Shown here piece by piece: positions 31,686 through 39,556 of a stretch of DNA of 64,000 bases. How positions within the stretch are numbered: the first letter of the stretch is position 1; every line of letters begins with the position of its first letter. Position numbers and translations under genes: made by a program. Origin of the DNA: Burkholderia sp. WP9 (lineage in GTDB: Bacteria; Pseudomonadota; Gammaproteobacteria; Burkholderiales; Burkholderiaceae); contig NZ_FNTG01000002.1 of NCBI RefSeq assembly GCF_900104795.1, positions 3,472,001-3,536,000 of the forward strand. Direction: 5' to 3'. The notes beneath the pieces were generated by a model that worked only from the letters and a program-made list of their open reading frames with translations, was not told the DNA's origin and made no database searches.

Positions 31686-32158
31686 GATTCGCTCCTGAGT
31701 GGGATGAGGCGCATGCGGTGATGCGATGGGGGAAGATTAGTCCGCGAATTGGACTCATGGAATAACCAATTTTTAACAAATTTAGGTAACCACTTCTGGC
31801 TGTGAGCGTTGAGCGCGCCGAAACGGCCGCCGACATCCCCACCGGCGGTGCGCCGCGTGCTGGGGATCCAATGAAGCAATGTTTGGCGTGGGATGGGAGG
31901 TGTCCAGTTACTGCCCAGATCCGGCGATAGCGCTGCTCGCAGCGCCTGACATTTAGGCGCTTATTTCTTGCAGGCTACGGTGGCAGGCTGGTGGCTATAC
32001 GAGCTAGCTGTGCGCAGGAATGAGCGCGGCAACAGCGACAACAGCGTGGACAGTTGAGCGCCCGTTTTGCCCTTCGGCTGAGTGACAGGTGCCATGCTTG
32101 CGCGGTGGTCGCTCGTGTCCGCACGAGCGCCGTTGTTCAGATACGCCGAGCGATCCGG
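31686..32158. other. Gap with several hairpins and no clear gene
   Basis: About 470 bases. An AT-rich stretch at 31725-31795 probably holds the promoter of the AhpD-like gene. Further right are hairpins at 31930-31945 (GCGCTGC/GCAGCGC), 31941-31961 (AGCGCC/GGCGCT followed by TTATTTCTT) and 32110-32129 (CGCTCGTG/CACGAGCG, TCCG loop). No ORF here looks like a gene. Confidence 0.5.
31941..31971 (+). terminator. Possible intrinsic terminator on plus strand
   Basis: AGCGCC pairs with GGCGCT across a 9-base loop and is followed by TTATTTCTT. No plus-strand gene lies upstream, so if real it would end an unannotated plus-strand transcript; the overlapping alternative hairpin at 31930-31945 competes with it. 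Confidence 0.3.
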
Positions 32159-32407
32159 TCATGGACTGCGGTTCAGCAAGACCGACGCAACATGGTGCAA
32201 CGCGCCGTTAGCATAGGACGTGACCACGGAAAGGAGTGATCCGTCGATCGCACCGGAAGTTTCCCTGTGAATACACGCCAGAATGGCCGCGACCAGCAGC
32301 ACGGAGCCGACCCGTTTAAGGGACTTCCGATGCTGGCCCGATGGCGCAGTGGCGTCTTCCGTCGCTTCATCGGAGATACGATGAGCAAGATATCCGAATC
32401 CCTTCAT
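32159..32407 (-). CDS. Doubtful small membrane protein
   Basis: 82 residues from the ATG at 32407 (the frame can extend to 32470). A hydrophilic N-terminus is followed by one hydrophobic segment, RVGSVLLVAAILACI, and a mostly apolar tail ending in NRSP. Codon choice is moderately gene-like, but no ribosome site is visible and I do not recognise the sequence. It lies downstream, on the same strand, of the sigma54-type promoter at 33364-33379. Confidence 0.3.
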   Translation of the reverse strand: MKGFGYLAHRISDEATEDATAPSGQHRKSLKRVGSVLLVAAILACIHRETSGAIDGSLLSVVTSYANGALHHVASVLLNRSP

Positions 32408-32575
32408 GATGGTCGGCAGATCGGTTGCAACACACCGAGTGTCTGCAATCATGCGCGTGCGTCGAACCAATTTTTTCGCATATCGATAGCAACGCGCAGT
32501 CCTGTCGATTCGGACTGTCGCACGGCGCGGCGCCGGATCGGCCGCGACGCGCCCCTCGGATAGCGACAGGCTCGC

Positions 32576-32818
32576 TCAACCGCTCAGTTGCGCGACGCGT
32601 TCGGACAGGCGTGCAATCCGGTAGTGATAGAGCGGCGCGTGCGGACAGTTCTTTAGATGCTCGACGCGATCGCGCCAGTAGGTAGGTGAGAAGGGCTCTT
32701 TCGGCGCGCAAGCGACTACGCGTTCCAGATGAACGAGCTCTCGTTCGAACAGGTGGTGGTGCATGCGATGAATCCCCGTGGAATGGCCAAGGTATTCCGC
32801 TCGCAACGTCGCTAACAA
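32576..32818 (-). CDS. Small His-rich protein of unknown function
   Basis: Up to 80 residues from a TTG, or 62 from the ATG at 32764, which has GGGG ten bases before it. The composition looks protein-like: RMHHHLFERELVHLERVV, then EPFSPTYWRDRVEHLK and APLYHYRIARLSERVAQL. The rest of the frame is open upstream to about 32954 without a good start, so the 5' end may be lost. Probably cytoplasmic and helical. It is the nearest plausible gene downstream of the sigma54-type promoter, about 530 bases away. Confidence 0.4.
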   Translation of the reverse strand: MLATLRAEYLGHSTGIHRMHHHLFERELVHLERVVACAPKEPFSPTYWRDRVEHLKNCPHAPLYHYRIARLSERVAQLSG

Positions 32819-33363
32819 TCTGACGCCGCGTAGGGCTGCTAATACTGGAATGACTGGAATGCGAATGCCGCAGTGGGACCGTCTCGCTGCGTGAAAAATG
32901 GGCCGATCTTCCGCGCATGCCGCAGGTCGATCGAAAGGACGAGCCGCCGTTGCTTATCTCCCGAAGAGGGCAACGACGGCCGAACCCCGCAGCGGTTCGT
33001 CCGATGCATGGCCAGACGAATCCGTTATTTCGGTGTCACGCATTGCGACGCTCTTCTCTGCGGAAGTGTTCGGTCGCCCTACATGGACACACGACAGCCA
33101 CTACTACAACAACAGCACAACCCTCTCTCAATTTGCATCCAGCGATTCGTGTCGCTGGCGTTGATCGTCGCGTCAGCAATCGGGTTCGATGTCTCGAACA
33201 CGTTGCCGCGCGCGATCTTTTTGGTCTCTCAGGCTCTCCCCGGCTACTCGGACGTTTGATTTCGCGTTCCCAGGATGCAGGTGGAACGTGGTCATGGTTG
33301 CGTCGCACTGCTACCGCCTGTCCGGGGTTGATCTCCAGGCGATGGCTGAATCAGAACTACTAA

Positions 33364-33379
33364 AGCAATGACCGTGCCA
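33364..33379 (-). promoter_or_regulatory. Sigma54 (-24/-12) promoter, minus strand
   Basis: On the minus strand the sequence is TGGCACG-GTCA-TTGCT, an exact match to the consensus TGGCACG-N4-TTGCW. The predicted start point is near 33353, reading leftwards. Two TGGAC-N6-GTCCA palindromes are centred about 85 and 117 bases upstream of that point, where sigma54 activators bind. A sigma54 activator gene lies 2.2 kb away. Confidence 0.75.
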
Positions 33380-33430
33380 GGGTGAAACCCGCATAGGGGC
33401 AAGGACCTGCGACAGTTGGACGCGTGACAT

Positions 33431-33446
33431 TGGACATTCGCGTCCA
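33431..33446. promoter_or_regulatory. Upstream activator palindrome 1, TGGAC-N6-GTCCA
   Basis: TGGAC ATTCGC GTCCA, centred about -85 from the predicted sigma54 start. Same arms and same spacer length as the palindrome 32 bases further upstream (three helical turns), so a Fis-type activator could bind both on one face of the DNA. Confidence 0.6.
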
Positions 33447-33462
33447 TAGACTTGGGCGAAAT

Positions 33463-33478
33463 TGGACGATTTCGTCCA
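33463..33478. promoter_or_regulatory. Upstream activator palindrome 2, TGGAC-N6-GTCCA
   Basis: TGGAC GATTTC GTCCA, part of the longer near-perfect palindrome ATTGGACGATTTCGTCCAAT (33461-33480), centred about -117 from the predicted sigma54 start. A half-site TTGGAC also occurs at 33416-33421. Confidence 0.6.
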
Positions 33479-33590
33479 ATCAGGGGTTCACGACGAATAA
33501 ACGGGCGAATTCGTCCGCGCGGAACGAAATCGGCCGGCATCGAGGAGAAATGGGGGAGGCGGGCAGGAGCGCTCAAGGCGAGCGTGGCGC

Positions 33591-33667: not shown

Positions 33668-34393
33668 TTACGACTGAAGGCTGACCTTGCTGTAGGTCAA
33701 ACGGCTGGGGCGCACTTTCATCCGCACCAGCGACACGAGGAAGCTGAAACCGGCCTGATTCGGATCGATCACCGGCACGTAGACGCCCAAGGCCTCGCTA
33801 AGCAGCGTGGATACGCGGCTCGCCACGTCCACGAAACCCGTGCAGCCGAGCAGAATCGCCTGCGCGCCGTCTTCCTTGATCGCGGCCATGGCCGCTTCGA
33901 AGGTGCGCACCACCACCACGTCGATGTTTTCCAGTTGCGCGACAGGGCAGTCGATCGCCCGGATCGAGGCGAACGTGTCCTGAATCCCGTAAGTCTGCGG
34001 ATGAGCGCGCTGCATCGCGACCGTGCTTTGCAGAATCGTGACGATGGAGAACCGCTGACTGAGCGCGAGCGCCGTGAAAGCCGACGCCGGAAATCCCCCG
34101 ATGATCGGAATGTCGATCACCTCGCGTGCCGCTTCGACACCGCACATGTCGAAGTCGGTCAGCCAGATGCCGTCAAAGCCGTCATTCGCTATCGACTGTG
34201 CGAGTTCGACCACCGGCATGCCGTTTTGCAACCAGTTGGTCCGGTTCTCGATATCGGGATGTCCCTGCGTAATGTTGCGAATCTCGACCTGCACGTCCGG
34301 CGGCAGGACCGGCGCGACGGCTTTCATGATGCGGTCGTTGTATTGCGACGTGGCGACGGGCACGAGCACGCAGATACGAAGTGGGGCGCTCAC
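33668..34393 (-). CDS. Hydantoin/Asp-Glu racemase family protein
   Basis: 241 residues from a GTG at 34393 that overlaps the upstream stop by four bases (GTGA), with AAGGGGGAA before it; frames extending further upstream lie inside the neighbouring gene. The two Cys sites of the family are present: FDMCGVEAARE near residue 80 and ILLGCTGFVDVA near 180. The opening RICVLVPVATSQYNDRIMKAV and the turn IIGGFPASAFTALAL resemble hydantoin racemases. It would interconvert stereoisomers of a hydantoin or amino-acid-like compound. Its partner gene encodes a DUF917 protein. Confidence 0.85.
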   Translation of the reverse strand: MSAPLRICVLVPVATSQYNDRIMKAVAPVLPPDVQVEIRNITQGHPDIENRTNWLQNGMPVVELAQSIANDGFDGIWLTDFDMCGVEAAREVIDIPIIGGFPASAFTALALSQRFSIVTILQSTVAMQRAHPQTYGIQDTFASIRAIDCPVAQLENIDVVVVRTFEAAMAAIKEDGAQAILLGCTGFVDVASRVSTLLSEALGVYVPVIDPNQAGFSFLVSLVRMKVRPSRLTYSKVSLQS

Positions 34394-35607
34394 GATGCTT
34401 CCCCCTTGCGTGCGGAGTGGAGCGATTCGAGCGGCACGTACGGCCCGAGATAGCCAAGCTTGTTGAGCTGTTCCATGAAGCTGTCGAGAATCAGGCCGGG
34501 TTTGCGCAATTCCGCTTCGGCACGCCAGGCGATCAGCGTCACGGGGCGCTTGCCGATTGCCGGGTTCAGCGAACCGTCGTCGTTCACGAGGTCGCCATTG
34601 CTGAAGATCGACTGACCTTCGCCGCCGACGAAATACGCGACGCTGTCCGGCGCCAGCACGATCGGCTGCGCACATGCGCTGTCCCACGCGAGCAGCGACT
34701 CGTTCTGGTAGATCACCGTGTAGGTACGCTGCCCGGCCTGAATGCGAATCTTGCCGACGTCGAAGCCGCCGCTCGTATCCACTTCGGCCGATACCAGTTC
34801 GCCGGGTGTGGAGATCGCCCGCGCGGCAAGGTCGCAACGCTCGGCGAGATAGTCGATCATCTGCTGGGCGCTGCCGATCTGCCCGGCCTGCACCGTGCGG
34901 CCAAGCTCGAGCGCACGCTTGAGCGTGCCGCGAATCGGCGTTGCGCGGCCGATGTCGCCCGCATTCATGACCCACATGGCGAGGCCGCCGAACTGACCGA
35001 ATTCGGGATCGGCCACGACCGGACGCATCATCTGTTCGACGATCGCCGACACGTCGCGTTGATGGGTCGGCCCGCCGTTGCTGTCGTTGCGCGGCGTCAC
35101 GTCGAGCTCCACGCACAGGCCGCCCTGGCTCACGAGAAACGCCGGGCGCGGATCGATCTCGGCGGCCGCGAAAGTGAGCATTGGCAACGATGGCACGGCG
35201 CGGCCGGCGCCGTCGGCGTCGATGACCGCCAGCCCGAGTTTCGCCGCCACGAGCGCCGCCACCGTAAAGCCCAGCGCGCCGCTTTCCGGCGGCATGACAT
35301 AGGCGAGCTTCACGGATTGTGATGCAAGCCGCTTCTGCACGTTCTGTACGGCCGTCACCGGTCCGATCGGATAGGTGGCTGAATTGATGGCTTCAGGCGC
35401 GCCGAGATAGGCGACCATGACCGCCGCGCCTTCGGTGGCCTCGTCCACCGAGACGACCTTGACGGTATCCGTCGGGTAATAGTCGCCCTTTACGAAATGC
35501 TCGGCCAGGTGTCGCGCCGATACGATCGTGCCGCCGCCGCCGGAGCCAAAGAACGCTGCGCCGAGAAGCAGCGGCTCCAGATCTTCCCGTCGTAATTCAT
35601 AGGCCAT
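34390..35607 (-). CDS. DUF917 / S-methyl-thiohydantoin-desulfurase-family protein
   Basis: 405 residues. N-terminal signature of the family: LLLGAAFFGSGGGGTIVSARHLAEHF, followed by VAYLGAPEAI and the acidic LAVIDADGAGRAVPSLPM segment. Proteins of this family were long called DUF917; I recall that one branch was assigned as S-methyl-thiohydantoin desulfurase, which fits the linked hydantoin racemase, but the reaction here is unproven. Its start lies 11 bases inside the end of the sigma54-activator gene, so the three genes are translationally coupled. Confidence 0.82.
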   Translation of the reverse strand: MAYELRREDLEPLLLGAAFFGSGGGGTIVSARHLAEHFVKGDYYPTDTVKVVSVDEATEGAAVMVAYLGAPEAINSATYPIGPVTAVQNVQKRLASQSVKLAYVMPPESGALGFTVAALVAAKLGLAVIDADGAGRAVPSLPMLTFAAAEIDPRPAFLVSQGGLCVELDVTPRNDSNGGPTHQRDVSAIVEQMMRPVVADPEFGQFGGLAMWVMNAGDIGRATPIRGTLKRALELGRTVQAGQIGSAQQMIDYLAERCDLAARAISTPGELVSAEVDTSGGFDVGKIRIQAGQRTYTVIYQNESLLAWDSACAQPIVLAPDSVAYFVGGEGQSIFSNGDLVNDDGSLNPAIGKRPVTLIAWRAEAELRKPGLILDSFMEQLNKLGYLGPYVPLESLHSARKGEAS

Positions 35608-37915
35608 TCAAGATTCCTTTATTGTCGATGTTGAAAGACGCTTCCTGCTGAAGTTTGGCGAGCAGATCCATGGCGCTGATGACGCGCGCGGTCGGGTCCC
35701 CCGTCAACGAGCGCAAGCCGCGCTCGAGGGTGTCGATGGCTTCGGCGTTGCGGCCGGTGGAGCGCAGCAGATCGGCGAGATAGCGCGCGGCGTCCACGCG
35801 TGCGGGCACCGAGCCGAAGGCGAGGGCGGTGGACATGGCGGTGCGCAGACCCAGTTCCGCGGCGTTGACGTCGCCGAGCGCCCATTGCGCGCGGGCTCGG
35901 GTGACGAGGAGTTCGCCCAGATAAACCCGTTCCTGGCGGGCGAGCGTTTCGTCGATCGCAGTGGCGAGAAGCGCCTCGCACTCCTTCGCGCGGCCGGCGC
36001 GCAGCAGCAGTTCGCCGTGCTGCCACGTCTTGAACGAATAGAACAGCGCGCCGCCGTTGCAGAGCATGTGGTTGTCGAAGCCGTCGATCATGACGGTTTC
36101 CGCTTCGTCGGGGTGGCCGAGCGAACTGAGGTGGCAGCCGCGAAGCACCTGGCCGACGCCTCGATAGAACGCAAAACCGTTCGCGATCGAAACCGATTCG
36201 AGTTCGCTCGCGAGATCGCCGAGCCGGCTTTCGTCGTCGAACAGGCAGGCGAGCCAGGCCGCGCCCTGCAGGTTGACGGCATGAGCCAACGCGTGCGCGC
36301 CGGGCTCGGAGGCGCGCAGGATCAGCATGTCCATGGCGCGCCGCGCTTGCCCGAATGCGCCGATCTGATAAGCGGCGAGGCCTTCGAAAGTCAGTGCGAG
36401 ACTGGCGAGGTCGATTCCCTGCGAACCGGTACGGGCGTCTTCTCGCCCCACGCCGAGCAGATTGCCGCGCGCGAGACAGGCCAGCGCTTCCTCACTGTCG
36501 CCTAGCCAGAAGAGGGTGTTGGTCATCGCGACGTGGGCTTCGTCGAGCGAGACCCGGTCGCCGCCGTTCTGGGCGCGCTCCAGCATGTTCTGCGCGGTGG
36601 CGCGCGCCTGCTTGAGCTGAAGCGTCGTCAGTTGCGTGGTCCAGATGCCGAACTGGATCGCCGCGAGTTCGGCGGGCGCACAGACGCCTTCGCCGATGGT
36701 CAGTGCGGCGGCGTAGCAGGCGGTGGCTTCCGCGTACAACCAGCCGTGCACGCTACGCAAGCTCATGCCGAGCAGCCGGTAGGCGTCAAACTGAAGACGG
36801 CGCACGGACTCCTGTTCCTGGGGCGTTTGCAGCACGTCGAGGCAACGGCGCAACAGCGGGATGGCTTCGGCGAACTTCGATTCTTCGATCAGCGCGCTGG
36901 CGTGCTCGAGACACTTGCGCGCTTCCCGATGATGTTCCTCGCGTGACTTCAGACGCCGCTCAATGGTCTTCCGGCCCACGCCCAGCAAGGTGGCGGCCGC
37001 GCTTTTGTTGCCGCTGGTGCGTTCGAGCGCGCGGTCGATCAGGAGGTCTTCAGCGACTGCGAGCTTGTCGCGGCCTTCGAGTTGCAGCAGCATGTCAGCG
37101 AGGCTTGCGCGCGACACCGGCCCGGTCGTTTCATTGGCAAGAAACGGCTCGAGCGAATCGACGTCGATGAGCGTGTTCTCGGCGAGCACGCTCAACTGGC
37201 TGATCAGGTTGCGCAACTGCCGGATGTGACCCGGCCATGCGTGCTGGGACAGCCGGCGGATGGCCGCCGGCGAAAATTCGAGGCGACGCGTGTGCTGCGC
37301 CGCGAAGTGAGTGACGAGAGCCGGAATGTCCTCGATGCGCTGTTCGAGGCCGGGAACGGCGAGCACGAAAACCGCCAGCCGGTAGAACAGGTCTTCGCGG
37401 AACAGACCTTCGCGCGCGAGTTCGCGCAGGTCGCGGTGAGTCGCGGCAACGACGCGGCCCGCGAAATGCAGATTGGTCGATGAACCAATCGGGCGGAAGG
37501 TTCGCGTTTCGAGTACCCGCAGCAGTTTCGGCTGCAGTGCGAGTGGCAGCTCGCCGATTTCGTCGAGCAGAAGCGTGCCCTTGCCGACCTGCTGGAAAAG
37601 TCCCTGACGGGTTTCGCCCGCACCGGTGAACGCGCCTTTGACGTGCCCGAACAATTCGGCTTCAACGAGATTTTCTGGAATCGCGCCGCAGTTGACGTCG
37701 ACGAACGGCTGATCCTGGCGCTGGCTGTGCGCATGGACGCGGCGAGCGACCAACTCCTTGCCTGAGCCGGTCGGCCCGAAAACAAGCAGCGGATGATCGG
37801 TTGGTGCGACCCGATCGATCATCCTGACCAGTTGGCGAAAAGCTGGCGCGGCGCCCACGAAGGCGCCGGAATCAGCCTTTTCGTGAACGAATGGGACGAC
37901 AGGGGGTGGACTCAT
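35597..37915 (-). CDS. Sigma54-dependent activator with C-terminal TPR-like half
   Basis: 772 residues. The AAA+ domain starts almost at the N-terminus: Walker A GPTGSGKE (48-55), the sigma54-contact loop GAFTGA (94-99), Walker B LLLDEIGEL (115-123) and arginine region FREDLFYRL (172-180). A Fis-type helix-turn-helix is at about 294-322 (SGNKSAAATLLGVGRKTIERRL). After it come about 440 residues of helical repeats resembling TPRs (EARKCLEHASALIEESKFAEA, DSEEALACLARGN). Usual activators have a sensor before the AAA+ domain and end at the HTH; here the putative sensor is C-terminal. It probably controls the promoter at 33364-33379 and perhaps its own operon. Confidence 0.9.
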   Translation of the reverse strand: MSPPPVVPFVHEKADSGAFVGAAPAFRQLVRMIDRVAPTDHPLLVFGPTGSGKELVARRVHAHSQRQDQPFVDVNCGAIPENLVEAELFGHVKGAFTGAGETRQGLFQQVGKGTLLLDEIGELPLALQPKLLRVLETRTFRPIGSSTNLHFAGRVVAATHRDLRELAREGLFREDLFYRLAVFVLAVPGLEQRIEDIPALVTHFAAQHTRRLEFSPAAIRRLSQHAWPGHIRQLRNLISQLSVLAENTLIDVDSLEPFLANETTGPVSRASLADMLLQLEGRDKLAVAEDLLIDRALERTSGNKSAAATLLGVGRKTIERRLKSREEHHREARKCLEHASALIEESKFAEAIPLLRRCLDVLQTPQEQESVRRLQFDAYRLLGMSLRSVHGWLYAEATACYAAALTIGEGVCAPAELAAIQFGIWTTQLTTLQLKQARATAQNMLERAQNGGDRVSLDEAHVAMTNTLFWLGDSEEALACLARGNLLGVGREDARTGSQGIDLASLALTFEGLAAYQIGAFGQARRAMDMLILRASEPGAHALAHAVNLQGAAWLACLFDDESRLGDLASELESVSIANGFAFYRGVGQVLRGCHLSSLGHPDEAETVMIDGFDNHMLCNGGALFYSFKTWQHGELLLRAGRAKECEALLATAIDETLARQERVYLGELLVTRARAQWALGDVNAAELGLRTAMSTALAFGSVPARVDAARYLADLLRSTGRNAEAIDTLERGLRSLTGDPTARVISAMDLLAKLQQEASFNIDNKGILNGL

Positions 37916-38372: not shown

Positions 38373-39293
38373 TTATGCGGCTTCGCCTCTATGAGCCGCG
38401 AACCAGTTCTTTTCGAATGTCATGGGGCTGACGTAATCGAGCGTTGAATGTAACCGGCGCGCGTTGTAAAAACCCAGCCAGTCAATCACCTCATCCATTG
38501 CTGCCCGCCGGGTGGGGAAGTGTCGTCCGTGCATGCGTGCTACCTTCAGCGAACCCCATAGACTTTCCGTCGGCGAGTTATCCCAACAATTTCCACGTCG
38601 GCTCATCGACGAACGCATGCCGTAGGCCTTCAACGCGTCCTGAAACAGGCCGCTGCAATACTGGCTGCCCCTGTCGCTATGCACGATTACGCCGGCGTCA
38701 GGGCGACGCCGGAACCACGCCATTCGCAATGCGTCCGTGACCAGTTCAGCCTTCATGTGCGGCTGCATCGACCAGCCCACCACCTGCCTGCTGAACAGGT
38801 CGATGATGGCCGCGAGGTAGACCCAGCCTTCGGCTGTCGCCAGGTACGTGATGTCGGTCGTCCAGACCTGGTTCGGTGCGTTAGCGGTGAAGTCGCGCTC
38901 CAACAGATTCGGCGCCACCGGCAAATCGTGGTTCGAGTTCGTCGTCGCGATGTACTTGCGCTTGTGGCGGGCTCGAATGCCATGCTGCGCCATCAGTTTG
39001 CGAACCCGTTCTTTGCCCACGCGCACGCCTTGCGTGAGCAACTCCTTCCACATGCGAGGCCAGCCGTATTCGCCCTTGACCTGCATGTGAATCGCCTTGA
39101 CTTGCGCGAGCAGCGCATCGTTGCTTACGCGGCTACGGTGCGGCTTGTCGTGCGCGGTGCGTTGCCGGCGCTGATGATATCCGCTGGGACTGACTTCCAG
39201 CACTTCGCATAGGACCGAGACTGGCCAGCGGCGTCGATTGTGCTCGATGAACGCGTACTTCACATCGATTCCTTCGCGAAGTACGCTGCGCAC
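38373..39293 (-). CDS. IS3-family transposase OrfB (DDE integrase domain)
   Basis: 306 residues counted from a GTG; in vivo it is normally made as an OrfAB fusion. The rve/DDE domain shows VWTTDITYLAT (first Asp), VIVHSDRGSQYCSG (second Asp) and NSPTESLWGSLKVARMHG (Glu), with the upstream HTH_21 region RVRKLMAQHGIRARHKRKY. It cuts and joins the IS ends. Its frame is -1 relative to orfA and overlaps it by 34 bases around the AAAAAAG slippery site. Confidence 0.93.
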   Translation of the reverse strand: MRSVLREGIDVKYAFIEHNRRRWPVSVLCEVLEVSPSGYHQRRQRTAHDKPHRSRVSNDALLAQVKAIHMQVKGEYGWPRMWKELLTQGVRVGKERVRKLMAQHGIRARHKRKYIATTNSNHDLPVAPNLLERDFTANAPNQVWTTDITYLATAEGWVYLAAIIDLFSRQVVGWSMQPHMKAELVTDALRMAWFRRRPDAGVIVHSDRGSQYCSGLFQDALKAYGMRSSMSRRGNCWDNSPTESLWGSLKVARMHGRHFPTRRAAMDEVIDWLGFYNARRLHSTLDYVSPMTFEKNWFAAHRGEAA

Positions 39294-39556
39294 TTTTTTA
39301 ATATGTCTCGCTCCATCTTCAGGCGCGCTACCTCCGCACGCAGCCGCGCCAGCTCCATCTGTTCCGGGCTCACAGGCTTCGTGCCTGCGCCCGCCAGCTT
39401 GCCTTCCCGGTCAGCCTTCACCCAGTTGTACAGCGTCTGTTCAACCACACCCAGTGTCGCCGCCACTGCTGCCATGCTTTGCCCGGCTTTGACCAGTCGT
39501 ACCGCTTCCAGCTTGAACTCGAGCGTGTACTGTGCCCGCTTTGCCTTGCTTGTCAT
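39260..39556 (-). CDS. IS3-family transposase OrfA
   Basis: 98 residues. An N-terminal helix-turn-helix (YTLEFKLEAVRLVKAGQSMAAVAATLGVVEQTLYNWVK) binds the IS ends, and a C-terminal leucine-zipper-like helix (ELARLRAEVARLKMERDILKK) dimerises. It ends just past the slippery heptamer that leads into orfB. Made alone it usually acts as a repressor of transposition. Confidence 0.93.
   Translation of the reverse strand: MTSKAKRAQYTLEFKLEAVRLVKAGQSMAAVAATLGVVEQTLYNWVKADREGKLAGAGTKPVSPEQMELARLRAEVARLKMERDILKKCAAYFAKESM
39293..39299 (-). promoter_or_regulatory. Programmed -1 frameshift site A6G
   Basis: Reads AAAAAAG on the minus strand, within the ILKK codons of orfA and exactly where the orfB frame joins. 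This is the standard slippery heptamer of the IS3 family. Confidence 0.8.

Follow-up and report, generated by a model that had tools for sequence, protein, structure and literature searches.

A predicted sigma54-dependent activator module in Burkholderia sp. WP9 leading into a conserved structured RNA and a new small-protein family

The window analysed here—the whole stretch of 64,000 nucleotides from Burkholderia sp. WP9 (contig NZ_FNTG01000002.1, positions 3,472,001 to 3,536,000)—carries on its minus strand, read leftwards, a sigma54 activator gene (35597-37915), genes for an S-Me-THD-like (DUF917-type) protein (34390-35607) and an Asp/Glu/hydantoin racemase family protein (33668-34393), two palindromes, a promoter box, a conserved region of RNA structure, and a small-protein gene. 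In the window the S-Me-THD-like and racemase genes separate the activator from the promoter; at some loci in related genomes they are absent. The box (33364-33379, minus strand) reads TGGCACG-GTCA-TTGCT from 33379 to 33364, a perfect sigma54 match; its -24 GG and -12 GC elements stand at canonical spacing and predict leftward transcription from a start near 33353. The palindromes, both of the form TGGAC-N6-GTCCA and 32 bp apart, are UAS 1, the downstream one (33430-33447, minus strand, with the 16-bp palindrome at 33431-33446; ATGGACGCGAATGTCCAA; TGGACGCGAATGTCCA), centred at about -85, and UAS 2, the upstream one (33462-33479, minus strand, with the 16-bp palindrome at 33463-33478; TTGGACGAAATCGTCCAA; TGGACGAAATCGTCCA), centred at about -117. 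Both the perfect box and the palindrome pair had been described, at these positions and this spacing, in a first-pass annotation made from the letters alone, and direct reading bears the description out.

Single loose matches to either pattern carry little weight, because they occur near shuffle level: with as many as 2 mismatches allowed, the window has 10 matches to the sigma54 pattern against a shuffle mean of 13.7, and 4 to the palindrome against 1.7, with 11 of 100 shuffles reaching 4. Loose sigma54 matches, being no commoner than in shuffles, were dropped as evidence, and for the same reason the box alone is weak proof of a promoter. At full stringency the picture is narrower; the box at 33364-33379 is the only perfect sigma54 match in the window, where about 0.015 would be expected by arithmetic from the base counts. 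Two copies of GGAC-N6-GTCC with 14-22 bp between them are found at just one position of the 9.02-Mb genome, as is the combination of palindrome and box, and the reversed-pattern control gave 0 in each case. We presume that 33364-33379 is a sigma54-dependent promoter controlled by the neighbouring activator.

The activator ORF, which the first-pass annotation had placed 2.2 kb from the promoter, is what it was taken to be. It matches Pfam PF00158 (Sigma54_activat) at 213.9 bits and PF02954 at 36.5 bits, and GAFTGA is visible in the translation; an AAA+ domain with its GAFTGA loop is followed by a Fis-type HTH (residues 289-323), the features by which bacterial enhancer-binding proteins are recognised, and then by a C-terminal TPR-type region. 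None of the named subfamilies (NtrC, NifA, NorR, PspF, RtcR, and others) accommodates it, the best 25 of 33 NCBIfam rows all lying below their cut-offs—the ntrC model, for example, scored 296.9 against a cut-off of 558.6. At E<=1e-120 the activator is present in 43 of the 117 genomes searched of the genus, which the window's relatives indicate to be Paraburkholderia, the window's own included, and at E<=1e-180 in 27 of 299 genomes of a family-wide draw, spread over three of its 25 genera.

The activator had also been called "hydantoin-linked", a label that holds for the window, where the racemase and S-Me-THD-like genes intervene, but not throughout: at L053, L055, L058, and L067 the first palindrome begins 28-244 bp past the activator gene, which leaves no space for either gene. 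We therefore rejected the idea of a hydantoin utilisation operon in which these genes always lie between activator and promoter. Since the same four loci keep the promoter, the RNA, and the ORF, a hydantoin-type signal for the activator is possible but not required. Upstream of the activator gene, at 38373-39556, there is an insertion-sequence-like ORF pair (rve integrase and HTH_Tnp_1), which we take to be IS3-type and which could affect the activator's expression here. Autoregulation through the same palindromes was considered and set aside; a near palindrome lies by the activator in 4 of 43 cases (42 loci and the window), and a sigma54 box at up to 3 mismatches accompanies it in 0 of the 4. 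The four are L054, L057, L059, and L062, where the near palindrome, TGGAC-N6-GACCA (1 mismatch), precedes the activator gene by about 130 bp and autoregulation is possible.

Conservation beside the activator is the decisive evidence for the promoter and palindrome layout. We fetched 42 loci with an activator orthologue, that is, one from every searched genome of the genus with the activator apart from the window's own. A sigma54 box (up to 2 mismatches, with GG and GC kept) lies downstream of the activator and near at least one palindrome at all 42, and the palindrome pair (up to 2 mismatches per palindrome) is present at 39, with a spacing of exactly 32 bp at 36 and of 31 or 33 bp at 3; the loci without a pair at that threshold are L082, L087, and L088. 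In the window and the first 20 loci retrieved, 99-101 bp separate the beginning of the first palindrome from that of the box. Activator and first palindrome are, by comparison, loosely spaced (about 2.0-2.2 kb at many loci, 18-244 bp at others, and 8.9 kb at L061), and the genes farther downstream vary among locus groups, some being common to related loci. Because the layout is kept despite these variable distances and differing downstream genes, the promoter tracks the activator more than it tracks the neighbourhood. Poor conservation in related genomes, which the first-pass annotation had named as grounds for abandoning its proposal, is thus not what the loci display.

The same comparison bears on who controls the promoter. 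Another sigma54 activator could do so, its proximity to the present neighbour being coincidental: the genome offers other candidates (35 at first look for the activator protein, 9 of them scored), and binding by the neighbour is a prediction. We consider this very improbable, for the pair accompanies the neighbour's orthologues at those 39 of 42 loci, over distances that run from 18 bp to 8.9 kb and in varied surroundings, and records named as Caballeronia or Burkholderia likewise have palindromes and box behind the orthologue. Control by the neighbour is the reading we follow below.

Leftwards of the promoter the first-pass annotation had seen a gene-poor gap with two doubtful small ORFs. "Gene-poor" was wrong, and one of the doubts was misplaced: the ORF at 32576-32818 is a conserved gene, with homologues downstream of the promoter at 18 of the 20 loci first fetched (L063 has none, and L064 a diverged form only). 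Its conserved start is the ATG at 32764, behind a conserved ACGGGG-type sequence, which gives a 62-aa product (32576-32764, minus strand; MHHHLFERELVHLERV...YWRDRVEHLK...RIARLSERVAQLSG). Codon-position identities of 0.85/0.91/0.61 within the ORF, against 0.41 past the stop, identify it as a coding gene. The doubt about the other ORF, 32159-32407, stood: a search for it, as 32159-32470, across the window and the 20 loci returned nothing beyond itself, its Pfam hints fell below cut-off, and we do not count it as a gene. Farther left, a 43-bp stretch (31812-31854) has a second copy, of 88% identity, at G000:C2:166703-166745.

Searched by words against 5.8 billion proteins, the 62-aa protein returned 7 clusters at E<=0.01; the cluster names shown are hypothetical proteins, those that include an organism give Paraburkholderia, and one related UniRef cluster has a name starting 'Hemerythr'. 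Pfam and NCBIfam assign it to no family, and there is no match to DUF1842 or DUF1843. A related 65-aa protein, 34-35% identical to that of the window, follows the same promoter layout at the Caballeronia loci L140-L142 and L151, and itself returned 5 clusters when searched; proteins of about 100 aa at L064 and L083-L091 form a third group. Across 37 aligned sequences H12, L13, E14, F25, Y29, W30, R33, R52, and L53 are invariant. AlphaFold2 models the 62-aa protein as a three-helix bundle (mean pLDDT 89.6), for which Foldseek found no match in the PDB at E<=0.001. By comparison, then, the ORF is shown to code for a predicted protein of a new small-protein family.

The leader between promoter and ATG, conserved in blocks, measures 599 nt in the window and 487-742 nt over 19 sequences. 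A 5' block of the predicted transcript (33194-33247, minus strand; CCGGGGAGAGCCTGAGAGACCAAAAAGATCGCGCG...) stands out in the alignment of the 19 leaders, with a mean pairwise identity of 0.735 over the alignment columns that contain it (116-200). It is followed by a structured core, model R1 (32933-33168, minus strand), of 239 positions and 37 pairs, aligned by sequence across 23 loci; the structure was taken from RNAalifold on that alignment and extended by eye. Along the minus strand the core consists of hairpin 1 (33139-33158; 4 of 7 pairs changed on both sides), a conserved stretch left unpaired in the structure counted (33104-33129; GAGAGAGGGTTGTGCTGTTGTTGTAG), the nested hairpins 2 and 3 (33045-33079; 3 of 5 and 1 of 4), hairpin 4 (32996-33020; 4 of 9), and a terminator-like hairpin (32942-32981; 12 pairs, 3 of them changed on both sides) whose U tract in the window (CGTCCTTTC) is weak. 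The stretch at 33104-33129 is a candidate pairing region, part of which RNAalifold joins to neighbouring sequence or to the beginning of the ORF. Another structure, which adds a helix next to hairpin 4, was not adopted, that helix having 74.1% of cells paired and 0 pairs double-changed. A small-protein operon and a sigma54-dependent small RNA had been proposed as alternatives for this promoter; both gain support from the comparison, with a conserved protein and a conserved structured RNA downstream.

In R1, 93.0% of cells are paired, and 15 of the 37 pairs, or 53 cells over the 23 loci, carry double changes. Paired cells, double-changed pairs, double-changed cells, and the covariation score were each reached by 0 of 500 shuffles; the fifth measure, the count of further pair types, did not rise above shuffles (263 of 500). 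Versions of the structure slid along the alignment had at most 56.7% of cells paired and 17 double-changed cells, a comparison that favours R1 because the structure was drawn on the alignment on which it was tested. Relatedness can mimic covariation, so the changes were mapped on the activator-gene tree of the same 23 loci, which placed at least 29 Watson-Crick-type changes on 18 pairs. The window's own RNA (33353-32930) folds better than 100 of 100 shuffles (z = -2.68). The terminator-like stem is paired in 97.4% of cells, and a run of at least 4 T follows it at 9 of the 23 loci and is absent at 14; a terminator scan restricted to loops of 3-8 did not list the hairpin at 32942-32981.

These results argue, by comparison, for selection on the structure at the RNA level. 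They also weigh on a reading in which the promoter serves the small protein only, the leader being conserved for a DNA-level or other reason and its RNA having no regulatory role. The Caballeronia loci L140-L142 and L151 lend that reading something, since they have the promoter layout and the related protein with no RNA match, which indicates that the protein alone can be the load; against it stand the double compensatory changes in each of the five helices counted, and we think a leader without a role as RNA improbable. Rfam gave 0 matches in the window at gathering score and, for 32500-33400 at E<=10, three chance-level matches only, far below their gathering scores. The best reading of the RNA is accordingly a new family, having no match in Rfam, and one probably under selection as RNA.

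With stricter filters, a covariance model of the RNA matched in 32 of the 117 genomes searched of the genus, and 30 of these carry the activator; among the 299 genomes of the family-wide draw it matched in 10, all in one of the 25 genera. Of the two matching genomes without the activator, G027 gave a match of 25.4 bits that was taken as chance on score alone. The other, G037, holds what looks like a well-preserved relic (locus L114, 8823-9037), only the 3' part of the RNA, and both the sigma54 box (up to 2 mismatches) and the palindrome pair are absent from the 18 kb read there. Conversely, 13 of the 43 genus genomes with the activator gave no RNA match, so the module can do without the RNA. 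A poly-Cys leader peptide within the RNA (GAGAGAGGGCTGTGCTGTTGTTGTAG, read as ERGLCCCCS) was also considered. The frame is open and indels in its UGU run are multiples of three; among 35 sequences, two of which have no recognisable core and were left uncounted, 12 of the 33 core-bearing loci have no in-frame ATG, GTG, or TTG, and the end of the frame varies. We rejected the peptide, and infer that repeat slippage better explains the UGU-run indels.

How closely RNA and ORF belong together bears on what the RNA is for. The RNA is followed by the ORF in 19 of 21 cases (18 of 20 loci, and the window), an association that could mean that the RNA is a cis-acting 5' leader only—an attenuator, a riboswitch-like element, or a translation control—and that the 62-aa protein is the sole product. 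The promoter-to-ATG distance of 487-742 nt in those cases, the layout of hairpins followed by a terminator-like stem (if with a weak U tract in the window), and the course of conservation all fit such a leader: the stretch from hairpin to ATG has an identity of 0.712 (0.752 in its last 80 nt), about that of the RNA core (0.736), so conservation does not end at the hairpin. When RNAalifold folds the RNA core together with the ORF start, the two moreover pair through the conserved GAGAGAGGG..GTGC stretch. That pairing is slightly better than in shuffled sequence at 18 of 19 related loci (z -0.23 to -1.76), but not above random windows of the same locus, a fraction 0.34-0.90 of which pair at least as strongly; we keep it as a lead only.

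The two elements also occur apart, in both directions, and this counts against a leader with no other function. L063 has the box (2 mismatches) and the RNA and no homologous ORF, the stop codon of a convergent, intact SCFA transporter gene lying 4 bp past the RNA; it is the only locus where the RNA clearly has no ORF behind it. At L077 and L078 full-length matches to the RNA model stand ahead of an AraC-type ORF, as do shorter or weaker matches at L075, L076, and L079-L081 (the AraC-type ORF from L075 was confirmed by Pfam), and at L082 the RNA precedes a protein of the about-100-aa type. The ORF family, for its part, is found with no RNA match at the Caballeronia loci L140-L142 and L151, and also at L064 and L083-L091, where weak matches at L083 (16.6 bits) and L084 (12.8 bits) lie on the other strand and far away, respectively. 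We regard a purely cis-acting leader as a serious but rather unlikely explanation. Because the RNA persists at a locus that lacks the small protein, we read it as having a job of its own, and as usually sharing one transcript with the small protein. In the window, read-through from RNA into ORF is likely, given the few loci with a T run, the weak tail of the window's hairpin, and the conserved stretch from hairpin to ATG.

Comparison of related genomes establishes the promoter and palindrome layout, the conserved structure of the RNA, the ORF as coding, and the association of all these with the activator gene; together they probably form a one-promoter module of neighbouring activator, palindromes, sigma54 promoter, stand-alone RNA, and, by read-through, the 62-aa protein. 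In such a module the adjacent TPR-containing activator would bind both palindromes and switch on the promoter at 33364-33379, presumably in an RpoN-dependent manner. The transcript, starting near 33353, would first yield a structured RNA of about 420 nt that ends in the terminator-like hairpin; polymerase reading past the hairpin would produce the mRNA of the three-helix protein. The RNA itself, released by termination or by processing at the hairpin, would most likely regulate other transcripts in trans.

To our knowledge, few sigma54-controlled regulatory RNAs have been described; the nearest working analogues of the window's RNA appear to be Qrr1 and CrcZ. Qrr RNAs are about 100 nt long and their activators are response regulators; the window differs in having an activator with a C-terminal TPR-type region, an RNA of about 420 nt with no Rfam match, and a small-protein gene behind it. 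CrcZ and CrcY of the Pseudomonadaceae, which depend on CbrB and RpoN, are RNAs of a few hundred nucleotides made from a sigma54 promoter under one activator, and in these respects resemble what we predict for the window. The interaction of CrcZ with Hfq involves A-rich motifs. Qrr1 of Vibrio fischeri is a small RNA activated by LuxO and SypG (PMC10162802), resembling the window in that a sigma54-dependent promoter under enhancer-binding proteins leads into a regulatory RNA (a predicted one in the window), and CrcZ works via Hfq (PMC4063720). CbrB is described as directly controlling at least 61 genes in P. putida, whereas the window's genome has one palindrome pair. NcS25 of Burkholderia cenocepacia, a small RNA of Burkholderia and Paraburkholderia, is conserved as the window's RNA is, but it is 84 nt long and constitutive, lies in another genomic context, and has no sigma54 motif detected upstream (PMC10117139). 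Among the matches listed from the open-access literature, we recognised no sigma54-dependent RNA of similar kind in Paraburkholderia, and the terms 'small RNA' and 'non-coding' are absent from the main text of the P. phymatum RpoN transcriptome paper.

Beside more distant activator orthologues the layout persists while what follows it changes. These orthologues are 55-77% identical to the window's, with Caballeronia L165/L166 aside at 78%. At L092, L093, L148, L159, L160, L162, L163, and L167 (L148 and L163 being apparently the same entry) the layout leads into operons of DUF1843 and DUF1842 genes (PF08898, PF08896), which share the activator and promoter layout with the window and carry a different load, the window's protein matching neither family. 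At L094, L143, L152, L158, and L161 it leads into other ORFs or further sequence; the load ORF at L094 has at least 424 aa, and that at L143 has 117 aa and no Pfam match. No site was seen in the about 570 bp present past the activator at L164. In B. thailandensis, DUF1842/DUF1843 genes (BTH_II2182-2184, BTH_II0722) appear in a table of the genes most raised in stationary phase (PMC12322963, in that table). This gives no more than a hint of stationary-phase control of the module, conditional on the BTH_II genes belonging to this activator.

The layout as a whole is best read as an activator module with a single promoter and a load that can be exchanged, the load in the window being a new RNA family and a new small-protein family. 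A broader picture is possible, and we hold it tentatively: a stand-alone regulatory RNA family, found here in the window's genus only, may be a main product of a dedicated TPR-type activator acting at a once-per-genome site pair, whose load—RNA, three-helix protein, AraC-type regulator, or DUF1843/DUF1842 operon—would have been exchanged repeatedly, with the three-helix protein possibly feeding back on the TPR region.

The RNA, its presumed activator, the enhancer, and a new small-protein family lie side by side, so each step of the proposed pathway can be tested by single deletions. If load exchange is true, these loci would form a natural series, with the same activator and layout and different products, in which to look for the signal sensed by TPR-type sigma54 activators. 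They would also supply a candidate regulator for the DUF1843/DUF1842 operons.
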